DNA of 64,000 nt from assembly GCA_016748015.1 (NCBI GenBank), contig JAAOMT010000193.1, positions 386,858 to 450,857 of the forward strand, written 5' to 3'. The DNA comes from Geosiphon pyriformis. Taxonomy: Eukaryota > Glomeromycota > Glomeromycetes > Archaeosporales > Geosiphonaceae. The position numbers and the translations under genes were made by a program. Position 1 is the stretch's first letter. The number at the start of each line of letters is the position of its first letter. Shown here in pieces: positions 20,694 to 64,000 of this stretch. Below the pieces are notes generated by a model. It saw only the letters and a list, made by a program, of their open reading frames with translations, did no database searches and had not been told where the DNA came from.

Positions 20694-22260
20694 ATGGGTG
20701 ATTATTCATACCTGCCACAACAATCAAAAGAATACTTTAAAGCATACAACAAAAACAATCTAGATTTTATTGAACTTAATCTTTTGCCCTTCTGCTTGAT
20801 TTGCTTTCTCATTGAAGAACAATCCAGCAGACAATTCCAAGACTTTTAGAACTGGTTTCTGAATGAGCATTCAGCTGAAACCTACACAATTTATACAACT
20901 TATTACTTTGACTAAGCTTATTTTGAAGATAACTTTGATGAAAGAAACAACAATATCAATCAGCTCTTATATTCTACAATCTTTAAACAACAGCCCCCTA
21001 ATTTCGAATATCTGAATCATCAAATCCACATTTGGATTGCTGCCCATCAATTAACAGAAACTCCTCTTAAAACAGAAGAAAAAAGCTATTAAACCACTCC
21101 TGTTTTTGATCTCTTTTTAAGTGAATCAGAACACTCCACACAAACAGTTACATCTAAACCAATGGTTCAAGACCCTCTACAACAAAACATTCTAATCACC
21201 CTCCAAGATATACAAACTGCTTTAGGGTGAAGAAACAACACCCCATTACCATTATTCAGAGGTAATGCCCAAGATTCAATCAAATGGCTGGATGATTTTG
21301 AGAGAGCTATTACAGCAAACCAATATAATAATAAATACAAGTTCCAAATTGTTGGTGGCTACCTCCAAGGCTCTTTTGCTACTTGGTTCTCACAAGAAAC
21401 CAATACCAATGCTCAGCAAAAAATCATTAGATGGGCACTGGCAAATGCTGAAGAAGACAACACCTCTTTTACTATCCAGTTTGAAACTAAATTTAGAACT
21501 CCCATCTTAATTTCAAAATGGCATATGGAATTAGAAAAAAAAACTCAAGGCCCTGGTGAGGTTGTAATAGAATATGCCAAAACAATAAGAAAACTCATTA
21601 AACGAGTAGACTTTGGAAGAAATTGGACAGAAGAACAGAAAATACATTTCTTTACAAAAGGACTGAAAACTGATCTATCATATGCTCTTTGGTCCCTTCT
21701 GGTCTTGAAAAATAATCCCACAACAGACATGGCCATTGAACTTGCTCAGAGAATAGAAAACAATTAAAGAATGCACCTAGGATCCACACTTCCAGTTTTT
21801 GCTTCTGCTCCTGTTATGGCTCTTGCTCCCCAAATGGCTGCTACCTCTTTTGCTGCCCAAACTCAAGACTTAAATGAACAGTTAATAGATAGACTTACAG
21901 CTAATCTTGTCTGGCTATTAGAACCATTGGCCCAAGCAGTTAGAGAGAATTAACAATCCCAAAGACCCAGATTTGAATCCTGTTTTAATCAGTCCCAACA
22001 ACCACCATATCAAAGACAGCAAAATTGTGGCCCATCTGTGTACTATTATTGTGGACTAACTGGACACTTTTCAAAAGACTGCAACAATCTTCTATTGCCC
22101 TTTTCAGCTCCTAGAAACAATGACAATTAAAACAACAGAACCATTAACAATAATATTCCCAACCAAAGAACCAATCATGCCAACATCAATTTCTTTGAAG
22201 AAAATCCTCTAGTTAAAGCCACTGTTTATCAGCCTTTAAACTGGTAGATGCACCTCCAAA
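20694..22260 (+). pseudogene. Element C Gag (decayed)
   Basis: One frame from ATG 20694 (MGDYSYLPQQSKEYFKAYN) runs to about 22260 with several stops. The capsid part has SIKWLDDFERAITANQYNN, then SFATWFSQETNTNAQQK and FTKGLKTDLSYALWSLL. The zinc knuckle near 22035-22085 reads VYYYCGLTGHFSKDC, so the first Cys of CX2CX4HX4C is Tyr. The start is chosen because it follows the primer-binding region and keeps the frame of the capsid. Confidence 0.75.
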
Positions 22261-22399
22261 GAGTGAGAGTGCAAGCCAACCAGAAAAAAACCCTTTTTAT
22301 GCTTTTAACCTAACTGATAATGATCATAATATAGATAAACTAGCAATCAACACCTCTGAATCAACCAGAAAGAAGAAAAAAACCAAGATTGATTTTGTC

Positions 22400-23053
22400 T
22401 TGGATCCAAACAAAGCATCCAAATCATTTGCTGATAACAATGAGCCATCAAAGACTAAGGTTTTTAAAAATTCTCCAAAGTTGGAACCCCCAGAAATTGT
22501 ACAAAAATCTGGACCCTATTCTGTTGTTAAAGATCTCATAGAAACCCCAGCACACATTACATTTGGCCAACTGATGACCCATCCACAATTTAGAAAAGAT
22601 CTTCACAAATTATTGATACCAAAAAAAAAGACACCAAAGATCAACAAACACTCTCGCCAAGCTGGACTTGTTGATAACAGCAATATTACCCCTCTGATTT
22701 ATAAAGCCCAAGTGGCTGGTTACTTCATTGATCTGATTCTAAACAGTAGATCATCTGTTAGTGTAATTGCCAAACATTTTCTTGAAGCAATTGGCAGAAA
22801 GATTGATAAGTCTTCTACAAGATCAATGACTAATGTACATGATGACAAGAAAAAAGGCCTAGGCATAGCCAAAGCTATTCCTGTTTACATCAATAGTATC
22901 AGCATTAAAACAGATATAAAAGTATCTAAAGCAAAAGAGTACACCATCATTGTTGGTAATGAATGGCTTAAGAAAGCCAAAGCACTACTTGACTATAAAC
23001 TTTGTGAACAAACTATCAGATGTGGTGAGAAACTCATTGTGGTTAAATGCTGA
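22400..23053 (+). pseudogene. Element C retropepsin (active site mutated)
   Basis: A 217-residue open frame whose second half is a retroviral-type protease: GYFIDLILNSRSSVSVIAK, then AIPVYINSISIKTDI and YTIIVGNEWLKKAKALLDY. The catalytic triad should read DSG or DTG, but here it is NSR. Both changes are G to A, so the enzyme would be dead. A Cys-rich stretch near 23340-23430 (CAWCWCNKLL and CKFCLIYY) follows before the RT. Confidence 0.8.
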
Positions 23054-23429
23054 CATTGGACAACCCCTCCAGTATTCAAGCAGAACCAATAAGAAGAACA
23101 ATCAAATGAATCAGATAACGATAAGAGTGATGATAAAAAAGATTAAGAAGAACCAGAAGAAACTGCTGAACTTGTTTATACTATCTTTACCAGCAATGGC
23201 AAGCCACTGGACAATATTAAAGCTAACAAAAAAAAAATCATATTAAATGGCAAGCTAATCTGCTAGCCCTACTATAATATCCTCAGAAGAACCTTTGACA
23301 GAAAACTTAGCAAGAAAGCAAAATACAGTTATTGGTGGCATGGCCCTTGTGCATGGTGCTGGTGTAATAAACTTTTGTATTCACCAAGTAATGAATGCAA
23401 ATTCTGTCTAATCTACTACAAAGATTGGA

Positions 23430-24900
23430 AACCAATTAGCTTAATATTTCAAGAAGAACTTAAAGAAATACAAAAGTTCTTTGAGAATGAACCACCTGAA
23501 ATCCAATCACTAGTTGTAAAACAAAGAGAATCTTCTTTTAAAGAAAGAAAAATGGACATTAAAAATCTGTTGGTTAGAAATAGCCCAGTTATCTCAAAAG
23601 AAAGTGATGTTCCTGGATGAACTCATGTGATACAACACACCATCACCACCAAAGAAACTCACCCCATCCATTTGAAGCCTTATTAATTCAATTAACACAA
23701 TGATGAGTTTATCAAGAAAGAGATAAACTGAATGAAAAATCTTGGATTCATATAAGAAACCAAGAGTGAATGGGCTTTCCCAGTTGTAGTGGTATTCAAA
23801 AAAGGTGGAACTCTATGCTTCTGTGTTAACTACCATCAATTAAATGCCATCACTATAAGAGACATGTACTCACTTCTCAAAATTAATACAATGTTAAATA
23901 AATTCAATGGTGCTGCTTTCTTTTCAACCATTGATTTAACTGCTAGATTTTGGCAAGTAGAGATGGATCCAAAAAGCAGAAAGAAAACTGCCTTTATCAT
24001 CAAGTATGGCACCTATGAATTCACAGTTATGCCTTTTGGTCTTACCAATGCTTCTCCCACTTTTCAATGTCTAATGGATAAAGTGTTTGAATCAGTAAAA
24101 GAAAAATTTGTTCTGGTTTACTTGGATGACATAATGGTATATTCAAAAACCTGGAATGAACATCTTGAACATTTACAAAAGGTTTTTAATCTGCTCAGAA
24201 ATGCTGGCCTTAAGATCAACCCAATCAAATCTTTCTTTGGATGCCAATTCACCTAATTTTTTGGTCATCTTGTTACAAAAGATGAAATCTTTCCTGATCC
24301 AGCTAAAGTTAAAAAAGTTCAAAACATTAGACACCCAATAAATGTTCCTAAACTATGCTCTTTTCTTGGTTTGGCCTCTTACTATTACAAATTTATCAAG
24401 GATTTCTCCAAAATTGCTTTTCTTTTCAATCAGCTACTCAAGAAAAATGTCAATTATCACTAGAGCACTTATCAACAAAAAGCTTTTGAATTTTTGAAGG
24501 AAAAACTTCTTACTAAATCAATTCTCAAACAACCTGATCTGGACCAACCTTTTATCCTCCACATTAATGCATCTGGCTATGAACTTGGTGCTGTCCTTTC
24601 ACAGAAAGATAAAAATGGCAGAGAACATGCTATAGCATATGTCAGTAGATCTCTCACACCATCAGAAAAAAACTATTCAGTTACTGAACAAGAATGTCTA
24701 GCAGTAGTTTGGGCTACCAACTACTGGGATTAATATTTTCTTGGTGCAAAATTCTTAGTGGTAACAGATTATCAAGCCTTGGTTTGGCTGGGCAAGAAAA
24801 AGAAACTGGAACACAAAAAATAACTCACTGGATACTCCACTTGGATGAATTCGACTATAATATTTAACACTGCAAAGGAGCAAATCATCAAAATACTGAC
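23430..24900 (+). pseudogene. Element C reverse transcriptase-RNase H
   Basis: RT at 23789-24256 shows FFSTIDLTARFWQVEMDP, then MPFGLTNASPTFQ and LVYLDDIMVYSKTWNEHL, so the YLDD active site is intact. The connection and RNase H follow (24290-24800) with CSFLGLASYYYKFI, ILHINASGYELGAVLSQK (first RNase H Asp changed to Asn), AYVSRSLTPSEKNY and VVTDYQALVWL. Stops fall at about 24254, 24463 and 24731. It resembles ordinary Ty3/gypsy pol. Confidence 0.85.
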
Positions 24901-38689: not shown

Positions 38690-40492
38690 GTGACAAAAAC
38701 TCCTAATCTTACTGTTCTTGAATTCTGCCATGCTATTTACACACAAAATTAAAGTGATCTTGGATTACCAAAAGGGTGTTGTCCAACAGAATCTGCCCTC
38801 ACTTATTATATTAACACCAGAATAAATTATCATATAGGAAAGGAAGAAGAACCACATGATGCAAAACTTGGATTGTATAGAGAATTATCACAATAGACTA
38901 CAAAAAAAGTAGCAATAATAGCTGCAACTATTGTCAAAATCCATTGAGAAATTGAGCAATACACCAATAAAAATTTTCCAATATCCACAGGAAACACTAG
39001 AGAATGCACCAACAAAACCAAAGAAAATTTAGAAACTAATCAGGAAAGTAACCAGCAAAAACTAGGAACACCTGCTCAAACACCAAAAAAAACTGTCACT
39101 CAATTAATAAAGAAACAACGTATTTATTCACCAGAAGATAAATCATACCATTTTTCACCAGAAAATAAGATACAAATTCTATTAGGAGCTGCATCATCAT
39201 CAATATCAACTCCACAAACACCAAGAACTCCTAGTTATACTGATAAAATTAAACAACGTAACTGGGGAGACATACCAATTACAGGAGGATATTCATCACT
39301 ATTTCAAAATCCTCTTTTTCAGCCAAAATTTAAAACAGGGTTTGAAAACCATGAAGAAGAGTCTGAATTGGAATCCGAAAAAGAAACCAGTGAAAAAACA
39401 ATCACAAGACCAGTCACTGGAACAAGCAGCCAGTCCAAAAACCAAGAAACTCGTGATCAAGAAAAAGAACCGGATATAAGAGAAGCCACCTTTAGGAATG
39501 CTTAAGAAAATATCATCCCACCTCCTCTTAGACCAATAAGCTCACCAGCAGAAAATGGCAATGAAATGACCACACCATACATTGCAAGACTAACAGATTT
39601 CTCAGGAGAGGAAGAAGAAACGGACATGCACACATGGCTCAGAGAAGCACAAAAAGCCATCCAGGCAAATAACTAGAATGACCAAAAAACAATTTAAACA
39701 TTACCTTTCTTCCTGAAAGACACAGCCAACTCGTGGTATCAAAGCCTGAAAACAAAATCCACAAGCTTCGTCGAATTTAAAAATGCACTCCTGGAGTATT
39801 TTAGCAACCCAAATACCATAATCCAACTACAGAACAAATTCAATACTATCAAGCAAAATACCAGTGAAACTGTCACCCAATATCTTGCTCGATTCAATCG
39901 AATTTGCCGTCAGATTAAAGCGATTAAACAAGGATACTACACTGATTCTCAGGTTTTAAATCAGTTTATTAGAGGATTAAAAAGCAGCATTTTAGGAAGA
40001 GTACACCCTGCTCACCTTAATTCTTTATCAGAAGCCATTACACTTGCCAGAGCCCTTGAATTGGCTGAGAAAAAAGCTAACCATAGTCAAATGGTTAACA
40101 TGGTAATGGAGGAAAATAAGACAGAAACATTAGAGAAAAGAGTAACGCAATTAGGGAAGGAACTCTCTAAGAAAATAGAAAGTTACCTCATCCTGGATCC
40201 AAGAAGAAATACATACCAACCATCCCAAAGACGCAGCCAGAAAGTTAGCAACAGTCAAAATAATCACCAGGAATTCAGAACAGAAATGCATGCCTGCCAT
40301 TTTTGCAAATGCATAGGATATTTGGTTAGTCAATGTCAAATGCGAATGATGCAGGAAGCATGCAAAAATAATTACTACATGCCACCCCAAATGCCCAGAA
40401 ACCAGTACATGCCAATACCATGCCAATATCCCACCACATATCAAAATCAAGGAGCTTACCAGCAACAGCCCATAATAGCCAATCTGAATTGA
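38690..40492 (+). pseudogene. Element D Gag
   Basis: One frame from about 38690 to the TGA at 40490-40492. It contains TPNLTVLEFCHAIYTQN at the start, an acidic, Ser/Thr-rich middle (39130-39500), and a capsid with TDMHTWLREAQKAIQANN, ANSWYQSLKTKSTSFVEFK and TQYLARFNRICRQIKAI. The zinc knuckle at about 40285-40335 reads CHFCKCIGYLVSQC, where the His of CX2CX4HX4C is Tyr (C to T). A Met/Pro/Gln-rich tail follows. In-frame stops at 38753, 38899, 38944, 39504, 39674 and 39696 can each be restored by one C/T or G/A change. No ATG is seen at the start; GTG at 38690 may be a mutated ATG. Confidence 0.75.
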
Positions 40493-40531
40493 CATTTCAA
40501 GACCCAAAATCAGCCCATGTGGAACTAGAAC

Positions 40532-41659
40532 GTGTTGGTCCAGAGAAATTCAAACCATGCCAAAACTAATCAACAAACCAATCCAAACTACCAAAATTAT
40601 CAACAAACTTACCTTAATATACTGGAAAATCTAATCATCAGAAACAATAACAGTAGAAACATAAACAGAACCAAAAATTCCTCCAACAAATTGAACCAGA
40701 CTATACCACCAGCAGTTGCCACCGAAGATAGCAGCCTCGCAGCTATTTTTCCTTTTGAATTAAAGGAAAACAAGACTATGTTCAGTGGAGCAGCATTGGA
40801 CGAAAAACGCCCAATCACTGCTATGTATATGGAAGCCACTGTAAACAATACCCCAATCAAACTTATCTTAGACAGCGGATCTGCTGGAAGCATCATAATG
40901 CTTCAATTAGTAAACCAACTGGGTTTCAAAGTTGATTGTGCTGTGACGTCCCAAATCATAACAGCTGATAGAAGTACAAAGCTGCCTCATGGCGAAATCA
41001 ACTCATTCCCTTTCGAAATCAATGGCATAGTAATACCTACAAAAGTATTAGTAATGGACGCTACACAATATCAAGCATTAGTAGGGAATAACTGGCTAAT
41101 AAAAGCCAATGCCACCCTAGACTGGATCACCCAAGAGCTTCTGATCAATTATAATGGCCATCAGGCCAAAATTCCAGCCACCTGTGGCCACTTTCAAAAA
41201 CCCAGCGCCAACCAAAGATTTACCTTCAAATTTGAAAAAAATCCAGCACTATCAGCCATTAAAACCTATCAGCTTTCTTGGGCTGATGACCAAAAAACAG
41301 GACTACCAGCCATACCAATGTGGACCAGCAAAGAAAAATCCGAATGGAACCAAGTAAGTTTACAAAAAAACCACCAGCGATGCAGACCAAAGCTAGAATG
41401 CTCAGTTTGCAAGAAGAAACTCTCATCTATGACTGTGTGCAGTGCACCAGACAAAGACCCAAGAAATCTCATTTACTACTATTGTAACCATTGTAACAAA
41501 GAAAAATACGGTTACCCAGAAAGACATAGAAAATGGGACGAGAAACCATGTTTTGTTTGTGGAGAATTATTACTAAGAGGGTGCGACTGGAACAACATAC
41601 CAGGCAGAGGAGGAACGTGTGATACAACTTGCCAATACACAATCCTCATCTGTGACTAG
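40532..41659 (+). CDS. Element D retropepsin and Cys-rich cassette
   Basis: Open for 375 residues in the Gag frame. Residues 1-75 are an Asn-rich linker. Residues about 100-215 are a retroviral aspartic protease with IKLILDSGSAGSIIMLQL (catalytic DSG intact) and QALVGNNWLIKANATLDW. The final 90 residues form a Cys/His-rich cassette: CSVCKKK, YYYCNHCNKEKYGYPERHRK, KPCFVCGELLLRGCDW and CDTTCQY, perhaps binding zinc. The same cassette is present but decayed in A, B and F. I know no named family for it. It would be part of Gag-Pol and is bounded by a TAG that is probably a mutation. Confidence 0.8.
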   Translation: MLVQRNSNHAKTNQQTNPNYQNYQQTYLNILENLIIRNNNSRNINRTKNSSNKLNQTIPPAVATEDSSLAAIFPFELKENKTMFSGAALDEKRPITAMYMEATVNNTPIKLILDSGSAGSIIMLQLVNQLGFKVDCAVTSQIITADRSTKLPHGEINSFPFEINGIVIPTKVLVMDATQYQALVGNNWLIKANATLDWITQELLINYNGHQAKIPATCGHFQKPSANQRFTFKFEKNPALSAIKTYQLSWADDQKTGLPAIPMWTSKEKSEWNQVSLQKNHQRCRPKLECSVCKKKLSSMTVCSAPDKDPRNLIYYYCNHCNKEKYGYPERHRKWDEKPCFVCGELLLRGCDWNNIPGRGGTCDTTCQYTILICD

Positions 41660-42880
41660 ATAAGAGGAGGAATGTCATTTGAAGCAGTGTTCAACAAAGT
41701 GTTAAAAAGACTACAGCACTACCCACACGATAAAAACAAGTTGTACAACACCACACAAGCCAAAGTAAGAGGAGGAACCACTGAAAAAATATGATGTTAG
41801 AAAAAGTCAGCCAAAGTAGCCGACAAAGTCGCCAGCTACAACATGTTTGACCCAGTAGACAAATTCCAGGACTACTACCAACAACTATGCCCCACTTGAC
41901 AAGAGCAAGAACAATACCTTGCCCAAATCAACACTTACCTCTGCGAAAACTGTCTTATCCCATGCCAAAATCAGTGCTGTGAAGAGTGTCAAGACAAAAG
42001 GGACTTAGAAAAAAAAATGGAAATTGAGAATCATCAGTCTCAAAATCAATCAATAAATCAACAAGACTCATCTGATGGTCCTGAGTCAGAAAAATTTATA
42101 GTCTATACCAACCTAGAACAAGTAACCGACATCCAATACTTTGACAATGGGCACTTAGGAATAATACTTGAAAGAGCCCATCCAACCAATGCTGAATTTG
42201 ATCTACGTTATCCAGAAGACCAATCCACAATGTTACCACCCAGGAGCATCACCAAAATCGACCTAAAAATAGCAGTTGAAATTCTGCCAAGAATAATGGT
42301 TCAAATAGCATCATGATCAAGCCTCACGAAAAAAGGAATAAGTGTTCAAGGAAGAGTAATTGACTCTGGATACACTGGAAATTTGATGGTTTTGCTACAA
42401 AACAATTCAGAAAAGCCTTATATTATTGAATTTAAAGAAAAGATTACACAAGCAATTTTCTTACTATTGGTAAAAATTGGGAAATTCATGCCAGTGGAAA
42501 ATTGTGAGGAATTATCACAAACAACGAAAGGAACTTTTGGTTTCGGATCGACAAAAAAAGGAATTAAAGCAAATTTTGCTGAAACAATAGAGGAAAAAGA
42601 CAAAGTAATTAAAAATGAACGGTCCATCATGCTCCTACCATATGGAAAATCAGAAATAAGAATAAAAAGGACAATTAAAGAAAAAGACCTAATATTTAAG
42701 CCCTATCCAGAAACTTGCCAACAGTTTTTCATAGGACTTACTAACCTTTTTATTCCAGCTGATAAAGCTCAATGGATAAAAATTCTTATCACAAACACCA
42801 CAGAAGAACCCGTCTATATTCCGGAAGATACCATCATTGAATACCTCAGAATGAAGCTAGAAAATGCATCAACACCATAA
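41660..42880 (+). pseudogene. Element D dUTPase region and second barrel-like segment
   Basis: Continues the same frame. The linker has YLCENCLIPCQNQCCEECQ near 41940. dUTPase starts near 42190: FDLRYPEDQSTMLPPRSITK, IMVQIAS then TGA (42314-42316) then SSLTKKGISVQG (RSSL with Arg CGA to TGA), RVIDSGYTGNLMVLLQNN (motif 3 with the Asp and Tyr present), KPYIIEFKEKITQAIFLL (motif 4) and FGFGSTKKGIK (motif 5). The second segment (about 42560-42880) has FIGLTNLFIPADKAQWIKI and IPEDTIIEYLRMKLE. The known dUTPase motifs are mostly kept, and one stop breaks it. Confidence 0.85.
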
Positions 42881-42964
42881 AAAATTTTAAATTTCCCAGA
42901 AATCGCTCTTTACTGTGAACTCACTTCAATAAATTGACAACAACTGTTAGAATGCTATCAATTT

Positions 42965-44389
42965 ATGCCAGAAGAATTGGCCAAATTAAACATTAGAACA
43001 ATGGATTCTGACCAACAGCAACAATTAAAAGCATTAATTTTAAAATACTCTGATATATTTTCACAAAATAGTGAATTTGGAAGAACCAACTTGGTTCAAC
43101 ACCAAATTCTCACTGAAGACACCAGACCTGAAAAACAACGTGCTTATTGTGTTCCACCAATGGAGCATAATTTTATCAGAGAAGAAGTCCAAAGCATGTT
43201 GGAAAAAGGAATAATACAACCATCAATGAGCCCATGGTTCTCACCAGTTGTTTTAGTAAGGAAAAAGAATGGAAAAATTAGATTTTGCATCAACTATTGC
43301 AAACTAAACAGCAAAACAACCAAAAACTCATATCCAATACCATTAATTGACGAAATCTTCAACATTTTTGGAGAAACAAAATGGTTTTCTACACTGGACT
43401 TGACCAGTGAGTACTGGCAAGTGGAAATGGACCCAAAGGACAGGCATAAAACAGCATTCACAACACAAAATGGCAATTATGAGTTCAATGTAATGCCATT
43501 TAGATTAACAAATGCTCCTGTGACATTCCAAAGACTAATGAACATAATTTACTCCAGAATCCTGTGGCAATCTGTTGTTGTCTACTTGGATAATACAAAT
43601 GTTTTCTCGTCAAAATTCACAGATCATCTCCAACATTTACAACAAGTTTTTGAGAAATTGAGACACACTGGACTTAAACTAAATCTAGAAAAATGTTTCT
43701 TTGGGAAAAATGAGCTAGCATTTTTAGGACATATAATTGGAAAAGATGGAATAAAACCAGATCCATCAAAAATAGACAAAGTGAAAAAATTTTTAGTACT
43801 TCGAAATGTTTTAGAAGTTAAAAGCTTTTTAGGACTCGTATCTTACTACTGCTGCTTTGTAGAAAACTTTTCAAACATCGCCAAACTCCTTAATTACCTA
43901 CTATCCAAAAATGTGAAGTTTGAATGGACTGAAGCACAACAAAAAGCTTTTGAGTACCTTAGACAAAAGCTCATTAAATCACCAATAATGATCTATCCAA
44001 ATTTCAACAAGAAATTCATTTTGGCCACAGATGCCTCTGAAACTAGACTTGGAGCTATTCTGTCACAAAAAGATGATAATGGAAGAGAACGTGTAATTGC
44101 TTATGCCAACAGAAGTCTCAGTACGGCAGAACAAAACTATGCAGCACATGAACTTGAATGCTTAGCAGTAGTCTGGAGTTGTGTTCACTTTAACATATAT
44201 TTACAGTACCAACCCTTTGAGATTACCACAGATCATAGAGGTCTGGTCTGGTTAAATAACAAGAAAGCACTAAAAGGAAAATACACCAGATGGTCACAAA
44301 CGTTAGCACCATACAATTATATTATAAAATACAAAGAAGGTACCAAAAATGCTAATGCTGACTGTTTGTCAAGAATGAAACATATATAA
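42965..44389 (+). CDS. Element D reverse transcriptase-RNase H
   Basis: Open for 474 residues. RT: IIQPSMSPWFSPVVLVRKKN, KIRFCINYCKLNSKTTKNSY, FSTLDLTSEYWQVEMDPKD (first catalytic Asp), MPFRLTNAPVTFQRLMN and VVVYLDNTNVFSSKF, where the second Asp of YxDD is Asn. Connection: FLGLVSYYCCFVENF. RNase H from about residue 350: ILATDASETRLGAILSQ, AAHELECLAVVW and EITTDHRGLVWL, so its acidic residues are kept. ADCLSRM ends the domain. Length fits a normal gypsy RT-RH unit. The start is a processing site within the polyprotein, not an initiation codon. Confidence 0.9.
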   Translation: MPEELAKLNIRTMDSDQQQQLKALILKYSDIFSQNSEFGRTNLVQHQILTEDTRPEKQRAYCVPPMEHNFIREEVQSMLEKGIIQPSMSPWFSPVVLVRKKNGKIRFCINYCKLNSKTTKNSYPIPLIDEIFNIFGETKWFSTLDLTSEYWQVEMDPKDRHKTAFTTQNGNYEFNVMPFRLTNAPVTFQRLMNIIYSRILWQSVVVYLDNTNVFSSKFTDHLQHLQQVFEKLRHTGLKLNLEKCFFGKNELAFLGHIIGKDGIKPDPSKIDKVKKFLVLRNVLEVKSFLGLVSYYCCFVENFSNIAKLLNYLLSKNVKFEWTEAQQKAFEYLRQKLIKSPIMIYPNFNKKFILATDASETRLGAILSQKDDNGRERVIAYANRSLSTAEQNYAAHELECLAVVWSCVHFNIYLQYQPFEITTDHRGLVWLNNKKALKGKYTRWSQTLAPYNYIIKYKEGTKNANADCLSRMKHI

Positions 44390-44598
44390 AAATCACCAAC
44401 CCACCCGCCATAACAACAATGAACAACCACCTTTACAAAAACCTTAGCCAATACTTGGAAACACTACAAATAGACAAAGAAATGCTAGTAAAAGAGCTAA
44501 TTAAGCTCCAAAAATTAGCAAAACACTATTTTATCTAAAATCACATACTTTATTACTGAAATTGACAAAATTCAGATAATCCATTAAGAGTTATAACC

Positions 44599-44730
44599 AT
44601 GGATGAAAAAGAAACTATTTTATTTAACATGCATTCAGATATTCATTCAGGCCACTTTGGAAAAACAGCAACCATCCAATGTGCAACTAGCCATTACTAT
44701 TGGCCAAAAATAAGTTCAGACATAATCCAA
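44599..44730 (+). pseudogene. Element D integrase, zinc domain before the gap
   Basis: Reads ETILFNMHSDIHSGHFGKTA and SHYYWPKISSDIIQ, the HH half of the HHCC zinc domain, in a different frame from the RT. The CC half and the catalytic core are lost in the run of N. Confidence 0.8.
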
Positions 44731-45441
44731 NNNNNNNNNNNNNNNNNNNNNNNNNNNNNNNNNNNNNNNNNNNNNNNNNNNNNNNNNNNNNNNNNNNNNN
44801 NNNNNNNNNNNNNNNNNNNNNNNNNNNNNNNNNNNNNNNNNNNNNNNNNNNNNNNNNNNNNNNNNNNNNNNNNNNNNNNNNNNNNNNNNNNNNNNNNNNN
44901 NNNNNNNNNNNNNNNNNNNNNNNNNNNNNNNNNNNNNNNNNNNNNNNNNNNNNNNNNNNNNNNNNNNNNNNNNNNNNNNNNNNNNNNNNNNNNNNNNNNN
45001 NNNNNNNNNNNNNNNNNNNNNNNNNNNNNNNNNNNNNNNNNNNNNNNNNNNNNNNNNNNNNNNNNNNNNNNNNNNNNNNNNNNNNNNNNNNNNNNNNNNN
45101 NNNNNNNNNNNNNNNNNNNNNNNNNNNNNNNNNNNNNNNNNNNNNNNNNNNNNNNNNNNNNNNNNNNNNNNNNNNNNNNNNNNNNNNNNNNNNNNNNNNN
45201 NNNNNNNNNNNNNNNNNNNNNNNNNNNNNNNNNNNNNNNNNNNNNNNNNNNNNNNNNNNNNNNNNNNNNNNNNNNNNNNNNNNNNNNNNNNNNNNNNNNN
45301 NNNNNNNNNNNNNNNNNNNNNNNNNNNNNNNNNNNNNNNNNNNNNNNNNNNNNNNNNNNNNNNNNNNNNNNNNNNNNNNNNNNNNNNNNNNNNNNNNNNN
45401 NNNNNNNNNNNNNNNNNNNNNNNNNNNNNNNNNNNNNNNNN
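44731..45441. other. Assembly gap (711 N)
   Basis: A run of 711 undetermined bases inside the integrase of element D. The colinear part of element B (about 30895-31900) is near 1 kb, so the gap size may be too small. Confidence 0.95.
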
Positions 45442-45561
45442 CCAATAGTTTTAATTGAACATTATTCAAAAAGATAATTAATCTTAGATCACAGCAAAAA
45501 TGATTTAACAACCATAAAAACACATGCAAAAGATTCCAAAATAGCAGTCAAAATTAAAACA

Positions 45562-46230
45562 ATGATACTTATTCCAGAAAACATCAACAATATAATTCAA
45601 CAATTAGTTGAAAGCTTACAACAATTAAAATTCGATCTGGAAATCACAGTTAATAGCTCCAAAATAACATACATAAAAAAAACAATAGAAAATCCAAAAA
45701 CAAGAAAAGAACATAATTTTGAATCATATAATATTGCCAAATATAACAACAAATTTATCAACAAAGTTATTGAAAAATTAGAGATAGCATTGGGCAATAT
45801 ATTAATAATAAAAGAAATAGAAATAAGTAAATTAATACCAGACACATTTAGCAACTTGAAAACGAAATTTCCAATTAATTACTGTTATTATCAACTAGAA
45901 AAGCACTTGAACATACAAATATTATACTCAAAAAACTCAACTAGAGTGTTTGACAAAACAACTATTCAATTATTAGAACCTTTCATTAGAAAAACCAACA
46001 CTACATTCCATTTAAAAACAGTTTACAGAATTTTCAAAGCATTTGAAAACTGTCACAAATTATTGTTGGACCCAACCATAAACATAATAACAACCAACAG
46101 TATTGGACGACTTACCAACTCGCAATTTCAAGAATTACAACAACAAATTAATAACACAGTATTAAACCACTATAGTAACTTAGAATTTAATGAAGAAATT
46201 AACTTTGATTTCAGTGGAGCTCAATCTTGA
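45562..46230 (+). CDS. Element D 3' ORF of unknown function
   Basis: Open for 222 residues between integrase and the 3' LTR. It has IQQLVESLQQLKFDLEITVN, INYCYYQLEKHLNIQILYSK, VFDKTTIQLLEPFIRKTN and LTNSQFQELQQQINN. Element A carries the same blocks in order (minus strand, about 9860-9480), so the protein is conserved within the group. No signal peptide, membrane helix or known motif is visible, so it does not look like an envelope protein. A helical, Gln-rich C-terminal part is likely. It ends just before the polypurine tract AAAGGAGGGGATAA. Confidence 0.6.
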   Translation: MILIPENINNIIQQLVESLQQLKFDLEITVNSSKITYIKKTIENPKTRKEHNFESYNIAKYNNKFINKVIEKLEIALGNILIIKEIEISKLIPDTFSNLKTKFPINYCYYQLEKHLNIQILYSKNSTRVFDKTTIQLLEPFIRKTNTTFHLKTVYRIFKAFENCHKLLLDPTINIITTNSIGRLTNSQFQELQQQINNTVLNHYSNLEFNEEINFDFSGAQS

Positions 46231-60835: not shown

Positions 60836-62839
60836 ATGGCAGAAGAAGAGTCACAAGTAAGCGTAGTTCCGTCAATCCTGGATGTCCCATTAAGGGATGG
60901 AACAAATGCGACAAATGCTTCATTCAGGAGGGTTCCGCATTCCCGATCATCTTCTACTTCCTCTGCAGCTTCAATTCATGGCTTAGAGGATTCGTTTGAA
61001 TTTATTGGGTCTGACTCTCGAGACTTAAATAACATAGATTTGCACATCAATGGAAATTCACAAGGTAAATATATATATTCTCTGAATACTGCTAGTCACA
61101 TAATCAAAATAATTTCTTTTTACTGACACTTCTCGATATGAAAAGAAGGTGAATATGCTGATGCATATAGTTCGTCTCCTTCAGAAAATGAAGAAGATGG
61201 TCAAAATTTTCCCGACGAAGAAGATGTCATAAATCCATCCCAAAGACTGGCAAAGCTTCGCAATACCAAACGTCAGCCATTTTCCACCCCTACCAATTTT
61301 CGTGTACTGTATGTTGGTTCGCCCCCAAATGAGCAGTTGAAACAGACGCTGTTTCACAAATTTGCCGAAGCCCTTTCTAGCATTTTTTGGGAAGAGGCTA
61401 ACAGCAATCTTCAAAGCAGTGACATTGGTCCGGAAAAAAAGAGCAATCTCTTACCTATAAGTAATTATCAAGAAGCTAGACTTGAATATTACCATGATTC
61501 TGGGGTCGCCATTAGCGAAGCAGATTTTACTAATCGCCCTTACGAGGAAGTTCTGACCTATCTTCAAAATCAATTCCAGAAAAAAGAGAACGACGATGAT
61601 CTGATTGACTTATGCATTTTTTTTATTCCCACCGACATCATAATTTTAAGCCGTGACATTCTACCTTTCATGAAAAAGTTACAAGGAAAAGTTACCCTTT
61701 TCCCGCTAATCGCATCAATAAATGACCTAAATGTTTCTGGAATTTACTTCAGAAATGAATGTGAAGAACAACGGCGTTCTATTGCTAAATTTTTTGAAGA
61801 TAACGGAATAGATATCTTCATCTGGAAAGAAGACGGTTTAGTTCACGACCGCAATGCAAAAGGGGAACAGATATCTGGCTGGGTTGAAACAATGTATACT
61901 AAAAAGATTCTAGCTGTTGAAGAATTTGCCAGCTGGGAAGCATCAAAAATATTTGAAGATATGCAACTATTGCGAGAACGCTCTTTAGAAATCAGGAAGG
62001 ATCGGCAGCATGATGAAATGGTGAAGAAGAGAGCCCAGAACTTCGAAAGATTTGTTGAGATTCTCAGGACAATAACCATAATGTTAACCATTTTATATAC
62101 TTTCTATCTGGTTGTATTTGGAGTATGGAGTTACGCTGAGTGGTCAGTGATTCCTTCAGACTTGAGGGAGTCGTTAGAAGTTGTATCCAGTGCTACCTCC
62201 AGGATGCAGGCACAAAATATACCCTTTGATACGGCTAATTATGATGATGCAGTGCGATTTGAAGTTACCCAATTATCACCGCGACGTTTCGTTATTGACA
62301 CATATCCGAAACGTCGCAGTGAGTCATATGAGGTCATTGTAAAACATAATCCTCAGATTTTGCGCCAATACGAAGCTAAAGATATGGGAAATGGTATCTA
62401 TGAATTTGAAATTGACCCTACTGGGGCCCAAGGGGATGTTATAGTTGAAATCAGAGATAAACTTGGGGAGATGATAAAGACTATCCAATGGTCTCCAAAT
62501 AATATTGGGCATGTCGCCAAAAAAGGTGCCGAAAATCCGGCTATAAAACAAGAGGCCGAGCAGGGCAAAGAGTTTAGAGGTTATTCTACAATCGCCGTTC
62601 ACAATATTAAATTTTGGGCTTCACTTTTGGTGAACAAAGTTGAATCATTTTTTGAAGCGGTTGGTGAAAATCTTAGTTTTGTCGCCCATAAAGCAGCTTC
62701 ATGGGCCAGCTCTACCAAAGAAGAAATTCAAGCGGGAATCCCTATTTTTTGGAACAAGGTAAAAGGTTGGGCAAAATACTTGAAAGATCGCATTAATGAT
62801 GGTCGTCAAAATATAGTTGCTTATTTTGAAGAAGATTGA
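60836..62839 (+). CDS. Membrane protein with divergent septin-like GTPase fold (two exons)
   Basis: Model: exons 60836-61064 and 61146-62839, 81-bp intron (GTAAAT donor; AAAAG acceptor, or AAG three bases later, both in frame), 640 residues. The ATG lies in CAGCATGGCA. Residues 1-125 are acidic and Ser-rich. From about 130: RVLYVGSPPNEQLKQTLFHK (P-loop position but no GxxxxGKS/T), DLCIFFIPTDIIILSRDILP and FMKKLQGKVTLFPLIASIND, then IAKFFEDNGIDIFIWKED. The last three resemble the septin order (Walker B region, FMKRL..VNIIPVIAKAD, EENGIKIY), so this is probably a nucleotide-binding-deficient relative. One membrane helix at about residues 384-407 (IMLTILYTFYLVVFGVWSYA). The C-terminal half has amphipathic segments such as VESFFEAVGENLSFVAHKAA. 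Likely membrane anchored; role unknown. Confidence 0.75.
61065..61145 (+). other. Spliceosomal intron
   Basis: GTAAAT donor and AAAAG acceptor, phase 1. The acceptor is a NAGNAG-like choice (61145 or 61148), which would add or drop one residue. Confidence 0.65.
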
Positions 62840-63285
62840 AGGGTTTTATGAGCATTTACAAGAGTAATTTTTTTACTTCTTAAATCATTAGTTTCCCCAT
62901 GTTTTAGAATGTGTCTTGTTATTTGTTGCATATTTAAATTGTAAAAGTTTAACTAGTAATATGAGTAAAGCCAGTTCATAATATTATCAATGCTTTGCTG
63001 AAAACATCGTATAAAGATTGCCTGTATGCATCTAAGTTTTCAATGCTTCAAATCGTGAATGTGCCAAGTTATTGGAGACAGGAGCTTTAAAGTTGTGACC
63101 GCGTCAAATTTAAAGTTTCCCAGTTTGAAATTTTCGAGAAATTGAGAAATGAACTTTTTTCAGGCTTACCAAGATTTGCTTAATAATGCCTATAAATAAA
63201 AATAGTGATCGCAAAAATAAATACTCCACCTTTTTCTCTTCCTACCTCCCTCTTTCCTGAGCTAACTTCAAAAAAGACTGATAAC
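62840..63285. other. Intergenic, no gene recognised
   Basis: 3' flank of the previous gene, then the left part of the IS607-like element. I could not find its terminal end or a MerR-type helix-turn-helix before the recombinase. Confidence 0.4.
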
Positions 63286-63687
63286 ACCGTCACCATCACC
63301 CCTGCTACCAAGAAAGGCTACCTCTACGGGCGTGTCTCTAGTACAAAGCAAAAAGAGGATCTCGAGCGACAAAAGTAACTCCCCTTTCGATTTTCAACCT
63401 AGGAACTCAGCGATATCGGGTCAGTTTTCAATTTCAAACGATCGGGACTTGAGACCCTATTGGAACGAAAAAGCGGAAGGGTATCAGAAATTGTGGCCAC
63501 CTAGCGTGATAGACTTTGGGAATTTGCCTTCGACCTCTTTCAATATACATTCTTCCTCCTTTCTGCAAGACTCAGGGTTCTCTTCGACAATACGACCTCC
63601 GACGAGCATGAACTCTCACAAGACATTCTTCCCATCAACACAGTCTTTATCTGCCGCATGCAGAGAAGGAGAGCTGCCTGTTTTTGA
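63286..63687 (+). pseudogene. tnpA: IS607-type serine recombinase TnpA, broken
   Basis: One frame reads KKGYLYGRVSSTKQKEDLER, the catalytic-serine block of IS607 TnpA (xRVSSxxQKxDLERQ). After a diverged stretch come DIGSVFNFKRSGLETLLERK, SGRVSEIVAT, RDRLWEFAFDLFQ, then LRVLFDN, ELSQDILPINTVFICRMQRR and a TGA at 63685-63687. These follow the family in order (DIGSGLNFKR, LLERA, AHRDRLCRF, EELxEDLLAIVTVF). Stops at 63376, 63400 and 63502 break the frame, and the third falls just before RDRL. The N-terminal DNA-binding domain is not visible. The enzyme would have cut and pasted the element. Its 3' end overlaps the next gene, as in bacterial IS607 elements. The open frame 63332-63607 over it is a shadow. 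Confidence 0.8.
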
Positions 63688-64000
63688 TGAGAGCGCCAGA
63701 ATAGGCGAAAAGCGCAAAGGAAAAGCGGGAGCAGCTCGTCCCAAACGTCGGAAGAGGCAGGACACTCTCAACTGTACACTATTAATCAAGGTGTATCCGG
63801 GCCATTCTCAAAGGCAGCTCTTGAAGTGGTGGATAGGCTTGAGTTGACATCGCGACTTTCATACCAAAAATTTCTATATTGGTCAATCAAAACAGGTCTC
63901 AATCTACCAAAGATAAACTTAAACTTTACACATATCTTTGGGCAGGAAAGGATGCTAATGAATACGAAGACAAGAAACTCCAAAAAGCCGCCACATGGGC
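63608..64000 (+). pseudogene. Fanzor/TnpB-type RNA-guided nuclease, N-terminal part, frame-shifted
   Basis: ATG 63608 opens a frame that overlaps the end of tnpA. A very basic stretch, KRKGKAGAARPKRRKRQ, could be a nuclear localisation signal. Then comes NCTLLIKVYPGHSQRQLLKW, matching the start of the TnpB/Fanzor fold (KIRLYPTxEQKxxLxxW), followed by WIGLS. The usual next block (GxxRxxYNxA) appears one frame over as TSRLSYQKF (63847 onward), and the continuation LVNQNRSQSTKDKLKLYTYL is in the third frame (63879-64000). So there are two frameshifts or unrecognised introns. The catalytic RuvC and zinc-ribbon parts lie beyond the window. Association with IS607 TnpA suggests the Fanzor2 type. A bacterial contaminant is unlikely because eukaryotic intron-bearing genes adjoin. 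Confidence 0.7.

Follow-up and report, generated by a model that had tools for sequence, protein, structure and literature searches.

The last 832 bases of the stretch of DNA analysed here (the window, 64,000 nucleotides in length) contain the left part of a decayed IS607-type transposon that carries a gene of the Fanzor lineage, and this identification is genuine and lies well outside chance. The host, which a sequence-only reading of the same DNA had taken to be a fungus, is indeed one, Geosiphon pyriformis (Glomeromycota, Archaeosporales), and the element belongs to an already known kind of transposon that is unusual for a fungus. We consider it very probable, with the mechanism proposed below included, that this is a dead IS607-type copy carrying a gene of the Fanzor2 lineage, and that elements of this kind have long resided in the Glomeromycota. 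On its own the window copy is of modest interest, being one decayed member; the interest lies in the family, which is numerous, has defined ends, is widespread in the Glomeromycota and includes a derivative that keeps Fanzor without the front of the transposase.

The window copy and its two genes

The window corresponds to C310:386858-450857 in an assembly of 124.7 Mb and 406 contigs, and its right end is the end of that contig. The first part of another contig (C397:1-3288) is an exact duplicate of the window's final 3,288 bases, and the two contigs, with these identical end bases, seem to adjoin each other without having been merged by the assembly. We read the rest of the element on C397, where the window coordinate equals the C397 coordinate + 60712. 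The transposon copy, about 1.9 kb in total and on the forward strand, occupies 63169..64000 of the window, with borders common to other copies, and a further 1,081 bases at C397:3289-4369; its true start lies about 117 bases to the left of 63286, where it had been placed from the sequence alone. A 565-amino-acid open frame from the list of open reading frames (61142..62839, forward strand), likely a host gene outside the element, ends 329 bases to the left of it, and its match to Septin was sub-threshold (20.6 bits, cut-off 26.2). In the public Geosiphon annotation, G9A89_011489, a 208-amino-acid "hypothetical protein", is a spliced model of the decayed window copy (63169-64000). Elsewhere in the window, retrotransposon-like stretches with gag-, protease- and reverse-transcriptase-like frames were recognised by eye at 21231-24256 and 38948-46230, and about 0.7 kb (44.7-45.4 kb) consists of N.

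The tnpA remnant (63244..63687, forward strand) encodes the catalytic domain of an IS607 serine recombinase in a single frame. The NCBIfam IS607 transposase model NF033518 matched the window in two pieces lying in one frame, at 63196-63375 (model 50-74, E 3e-5) and 63505-63684 (model 127-184, E 1.2e-7), both of which fell under its 110-bit cut-off because they are fragments. The three stops previously noted within the gene are there (TAA 63376, TAG 63400 and TAG 63502), and with stops read through PF00239 (Resolvase) scored 31.8 bits against a cut-off of 23.3, the first piece alone scoring 14.4 bits. Residues 43-206 of the relative P0024 aligned to the window tnpA with 66% identity (E 3e-51), in an alignment spanning five stops, the three inside tnpA together with the frame-closing TGA 63685 and 63688. 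The codon at 63337-63339 encodes a serine, kept in the window copy, which from the family motif we presume to be the nucleophile. P0024 itself reached 149.7 bits with NF033518 (curated cut-off 110), has an intact PF00376 domain, and aligned with the solved chains 3ilx, 3lhf, 6dgc and 6dgb, which are IS607-type catalytic domains. PF00376, a MerR-type helix-turn-helix, was precomputed in front of the recombinase in 6 of the best 12 metagenomic TnpA relatives (155-242 amino acids), and the helix-turn-helix was also visible in the sequences of others. The assignment of this gene to the IS607 TnpA type, made earlier without database searches, is borne out by these matches.

Two further readings of the tnpA region were considered and rejected. 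Dual coding was hinted at by the +1 frame, which in the window copy runs for 193 codons free of stops and, judged by eye, looks like the N-termini of P0016, P0019, P0020 and P0022. Stops numbered 46 in the tnpA frame, 63 in +1 and 113 in +2 (2,850 codons from 26 copies, some of the matched pieces overlapping), but stops in the Fanzor part rank likewise by frame (162, 247 and 408 of 6,060), so composition suffices to explain this order. Likewise discarded was a 3' splice site in the stretch to the left of the catalytic domain that is rich in pyrimidines and contains CTAAC: in alignments it corresponds to the SIFPELTS segment of intact TnpA relatives, and what is missing was removed by deletion.

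The Fanzor gene begins within tnpA, at an ATG at 63608, with the tnpA stop at 63685, and the overlap of the two frames that had been described is thus confirmed. Its first frame (63608..63847, forward strand, stop at 63845) was matched in 27 other copies, and the corresponding region of copy L047 scored 29.6 bits with PF12323 (HTH_OrfB_IS605, cut-off 21). A basic, NLS-like stretch, KRKGKAGAARPKRRKRQ, is present in the translation of 63710..63760, before the first Fanzor strand, as had been noticed before; its role in localisation is putative. The continuation in the next frame (63843..64000, forward strand) stays open to C397:3394 and was matched in that frame in 16 other copies, and at the joint at 63843 some residues are missing by eye relative to P0001. 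Two frame changes had been proposed at the start of this gene; the one at 63845 is clear, whereas the second comes down to a 19-residue piece in the third frame that recurs in one other copy.

None of the pieces within the window (from 63266, 63691 and 63843) gave a match to Pfam or NCBIfam models at E 1, so the Fanzor identity could not have been decided from the window by itself. Extension past 64000 supplied it: P0001 matched C397:3185-3616 (56% identity, E 1e-34), the left part of this match lying within the window, and C397:3792-4313 (E 8e-44), so that the claim of an N-terminal Fanzor part behind tnpA holds. The gene extends in shifted frames to about C397:4328, and its full reading needed seven joints. 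The RuvC region, identified by the P0001 match and conserved motifs, and the zinc-ribbon region are both present downstream on C397, frameshifted. By eye, RuvC-I of the window copy reads GPA where its relatives have DPG, the RuvC-III part is frameshifted, and EVCTYKTCSQC still holds both the displaced glutamate and the first CxxC. Among the 41 relatives tested, DPG was present in all and E-x6-CxxC in 30; one of the 11 without the latter, P0011, ends before the motif position. The combination of DPG and displaced glutamate is described as a Fanzor signature by Yoon et al. (PMC10711439). PF07282 was found in copies L047 and L040 and in relatives, which likewise carry PF12323, and 81 places in the genome matched the zinc ribbon at E 0.01. 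The profile check proposed earlier for both partners thus confirmed IS607 TnpA outright, and was answered on the Fanzor side by way of PF12323, PF07282 and the presence of both motifs in 30 of 41 relatives. The nearest solved chain for the relative P0058 was the TnpB-like protein L79 (E 3e-24), and a structure-database query with the RuvC piece of L036 gave no meaningful match.

The Geosiphon family, its ends and a deletion subfamily

A DNA search with the window part of the element gave 55 matches, among which the window copy was counted twice. Protein searches gave 152 genome matches for a TnpA relative (150 used) and 116 for a Fanzor relative, and these 266 matches, clustered at 4 kb, formed 151 loci, of which 39 kept both genes, 75 tnpA only and 37 Fanzor only. 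As one copy sits on both C310 and C397 the number of loci is one lower; otherwise it is a lower bound, since the searches score the best candidates only. Most of the listed matches contain stops, while some partial stretches are stop-free, one of them across most of the TnpA catalytic domain; the search for intact paralogues that had been proposed found paralogues at about 150 loci, but no whole stop-free gene was among the matches listed. Across 209 pairs among 32 copies (best aligned piece of at least 400 bases) identity was 64-82%, with a median of 71.6%, and with no pair above 82% the family looks extinct in Geosiphon. A second Fanzor group, L035 (C354:385.6k), L037 (C114:445.9k), L038 (C250:405.8k) and L050 (C354:315.3k), has a Fanzor gene and, by eye, a tnpA piece; the right end of L037, ACTCAATCCATCCG, is like that of the first group. 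This second group is probably younger than that of the window, because its aligned pieces are 77-93% identical. Fanzor pieces also occur alongside unrelated Pfam domains in the further Geosiphon gene models P0002, P0015 and P0018.

The left terminus of the window copy (63169..63210, forward strand) reads CC followed directly by AAGATTTGC. In four copies (L017, L021, L033 and L046) the left border reads CCGATGAAAAGATTT, with CCGATGAA visible in each, and in the window copy, L027 and L044 AAGATTTGC stands behind altered bases; the remaining displayed rows stop short of the left border. Allowing up to three mismatches, the left-end pattern occurred at 16 places genome-wide and the right-end pattern at 71 (7 exact, the window copy included), and each reversed control at 0. 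The commonest border triplet was CCG, exact at 49 of the 71 right ends and at only 6 of the 16 left ends; among the 19 right ends displayed it was exact in 10 and one or two bases off in 8, L042 being unaligned there. CCG was less conserved than the remainder of either end, with 29 mismatches in 213 cells against 113 in 1,491 for the rest of the right end, and 11 in 48 against 17 in 400 for the rest of the left. This weaker conservation could reflect CpG decay, or the triplet could be partly flank and the target looser. Three of the exact right ends (C210:449266, C303:48176 and C370:1049004) lie away from every tnpA or Fanzor match listed, and are possibly short non-autonomous copies or copies decayed past the reach of the protein searches.

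We found no inverted repeat between the tips of L046 or between those of the window copy, where scores as high arose in 249 and 410 of 500 shuffles, respectively. Repeats of the GCCTAT(C/T)A type were seen by eye in both ends, and a repeat finder applied to one end of each side reported none in either. No duplicated flank was seen by eye in the two copies with both flanks displayed. Comparison of flanks longer than 60 bases, from at most 18 right and 7 left borders, with the retrieved loci and the window revealed no empty insertion site; three weak matches (72-75% identity over 85-102 bases) lay away from the border, and 100% matches were excluded as overlapping loci. According to PMC6188088, insertion of IS607 takes place at a dinucleotide and duplicates nothing, its repeats are subterminal, and the recombination core of IS607 itself is GG. 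By analogy, the ends of the Geosiphon element fit IS607 recombination at a short identical core. Less firmly, the CCG border may correspond to a target motif, as 5'-CCG is the motif measured for NlovFz2 (PMC10432273).

A guide RNA at the right end, which the sequence-only reading had also suggested, is predicted here from the anatomy of the element. The commonest arms near the right end, AATAATAGGC and GCCTATTATT, could pair; both arms are letter-perfect in no copy, and in L020 and L022 they pair fully when G-U is counted. Six single right-end folds were mixed (z -2.7 to +0.5), RNAalifold gave a consensus of 0 pairs over 15 right ends, among which covariation would be unlikely in neutrally decayed copies, and there was no match to Rfam.

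In the window copy a deletion junction (63211..63257, forward strand), defined in an alignment of seven copies, replaces the TnpA start codon and helix-turn-helix. Relative to copies that bear the helix-turn-helix the deletion is roughly 120-130 bases in size, and approximately residues 1-42 of TnpA are absent. All seven aligned copies (the window copy and six others) lacked the TnpA start and helix-turn-helix, and six of them had the same joining sequence, part of which is missing in L021. Decayed helix-turn-helix sequence is retained at the place of the deletion in L055 and L056, and L057 has remnants of another TnpA type. The junction pattern gave 8 matches at 7 loci (the window copy lying on two contigs) and 0 in the control. 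Matches to P0024 started at residue 35-52 at 19 loci and at or before residue 25 at 6, the others starting later and being uninformative. Because the subfamily lost the TnpA DNA-binding domain and start codon and yet multiplied, these alignments suggest that a deletion derivative was most simply mobilised in trans by full-length TnpA. We also entertain, tentatively and as an unlikely extension of this, that retention guided by Fanzor, which would cut emptied sites and so have copies restored while TnpA was supplied in trans, made the transposase-dependent subfamily, with its Fanzor gene and ends kept, the commoner form. If true, this would be natural eukaryotic evidence of a nuclease, rather than a transposase, driving the spread of an element.

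The alternative, that TnpA without its DNA-binding domain was active alone and the subfamily autonomous, appears unlikely. It would agree with the shortened TnpA being more common wherever matches extend that far (the 19 loci against 6), and such a protein may have used an unusual start. However, the start codon was deleted as well, and in the window copy the tnpA frame, from the stop before it up to the catalytic domain, contains no ATG; a match start at residue 35-52 can also reflect decay, through which the ancestor is only indirectly readable. Moreover, TnpA of the IS607 family is described as carrying its DNA-binding domain N-terminally (PMC6188088).

Relatives and origin

A profile search scored 7,995 candidates, of which 735 reached E 1e-10 or better, and the best 120 of these 735 include proteins of Diversispora epigaea, Gigaspora rosea, Cetraspora pellucida, Rhizophagus irregularis and Glomus cerebriforme, of the chytrid Borealophlyctis, and of the bacteria Magnetococcus, Uabimicrobium and Moorena. 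Relatives of 469-493 amino acids were recovered, and apparently undamaged ones occur in metagenomes, P0058 and P0059 among them; P0001 is missing its start and one zinc cysteine. The Cetraspora gene models P0073 and P0101 fuse TnpA and Fanzor parts, P0101 with a helix-turn-helix. In a tree of 42 rows, built solely from relatives found by the search, the window copy, on a long branch, grouped with Diversispora, Gigaspora and Cetraspora in a branch of 17 rows (96/97), and six named bacterial rows, among 18 rows, lay across a 100/99 branch from its side. The lineage looks long resident in the Glomeromycota, with descent or transfer among them, and these sequences do not point to the cyanobacterial partner as the source. 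In the mostly open-access literature searched we found no report of a Fanzor from Glomeromycota or of IS607 from mycorrhizal fungi, one paper that mentions both Fanzor and Rhizophagus dealing with them separately, and large Fanzor surveys may already include these fungi. In viral and genome contigs, 45 and 73 stretches matched narrow peptide patterns (two each), none of which was confirmed as a close relative.

It seems improbable that the gene is a Fanzor1 residing in an ordinary DNA transposon of eukaryotes and not a Fanzor2 in IS607. Rhizopus, Phycomyces and Mucor have Fanzor1 only in the 2013 table of PMC3627910, some of it in MuDR-like elements. However, the Geosiphon gene shares its element with an IS607 TnpA, the tips are without inverted repeats, and the relatives, at the lengths given above, have as their best solved match L79, a mimivirus protein; the tree that places them is made up of relatives found by the search.

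We regard as very improbable that the locus results from bacterial contamination or a recent insertion, that is, from an ordinary IS607 with TnpB from, for example, the cyanobacterial partner or endobacteria. IS607 is a bacterial family, Geosiphon houses Nostoc, and the cyanobacterium Moorena is among the named bacterial proteins in the best 120 of 735. However, the copy stands on a 451-kb contig, close to the long open frame on its left; about 151 loci are spread across the assembly, and recent transfer is contradicted by the divergence of the copies; relatives have been annotated in a chytrid and in no fewer than four further genera of Glomeromycota; and the bacterial rows split off at 100/99. 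Finally, the possibility of a TnpA-only IS607 remnant with a chance frame over-read as Fanzor, to which the failure of the second-gene pieces inside the window to reach a family model lends itself, can be dismissed, as both P0001 matches fall on the continuation, RuvC and zinc-ribbon regions are encoded there, and other copies show the zinc ribbon and conserved Fanzor frames.

Proposed mechanism and comparison with known systems

Starting from the gene identities, borders, family size and decay observed in Geosiphon, and from the loss of the TnpA DNA-binding domain common to the subfamily, we propose, by analogy with known systems, the following cycle for intact elements. Full-length TnpA, with its N-terminal MerR-type DNA-binding domain and its catalytic domain, would bind subterminal sequences and recombine both ends at a short core, which would be CC or CG inside CCG, and the element would be excised as a circle and inserted elsewhere without target duplication. 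Fanzor, predicted to be capable of RNA-guided DNA cleavage, would act with the right-end RNA, whose guide would be the flank just right of the terminal CCG, and would recognise CCG plus flank, which is what excision leaves, and cut there; repair from another copy would then restore the element. The deletion subfamily would have been moved in trans by full-length TnpA.

According to PMC10432273, what Fanzors, the RNA-guided nucleases of eukaryotes, do for their transposons is still an open question. The roughly 150 decayed loci, the relatives in at least four more glomeromycote genera, the apparently undamaged ones in metagenomes, and the defined ends provide a natural record in which to explore that role, by asking which gene was kept once the other was lost. 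In addition, the border triplet offers a guess, CCG, as the target motif of intact relatives.

Among known systems, the Fanzor2-IS607 elements of Acanthamoeba and giant viruses (ACa-1, ACa-2, ISvMimi_1 and others) likewise combine an IS607-like serine recombinase with Fanzor2, and as described by Bao and Jurka (2013, PMC3627910) they have neither terminal inverted repeats nor target duplication, traits that the Geosiphon element may share. In Geosiphon, too, an IS607-type element carries the Fanzor gene, and both genes are kept at 39 of about 151 loci. The fungi with Fanzor2 in that account are four yeasts, with one family each. The Geosiphon element differs from those elements in its glomeromycote host, in its many decayed copies and in a subfamily without the TnpA DNA-binding domain, which is missing from the window copy and its subfamily and present in the wider family (P0024, P0101). 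With the IS607 TnpB or pro-Fanzor proteins of bacteria, including cyanobacteria, as presented by Yoon et al. (2023, PMC10711439), it shares the IS607 partner, and pro-Fanzors there have the RuvC-I DPG and a glutamate six residues before the first CxxC, as in the relatives of the Geosiphon gene. The named bacterial rows of our tree differ, lying on the other side of the 100/99 branch, and four Moorena rows are without E-x6-CxxC. The solved structure of L79 (PDB 9b0l) was the best match both of P0058 and of the zinc-ribbon piece of L047, although only 195 of 487 residues of P0058 align with it. For NlovFz2 the target motif is reported to be CCG (Saito et al. 2023, PMC10432273), which is also the triplet most often found at the borders of the Geosiphon family; the activity of NlovFz2 was measured, whereas here the borders of dead copies alone are likened to it, by their triplet rather than by sequence kinship.
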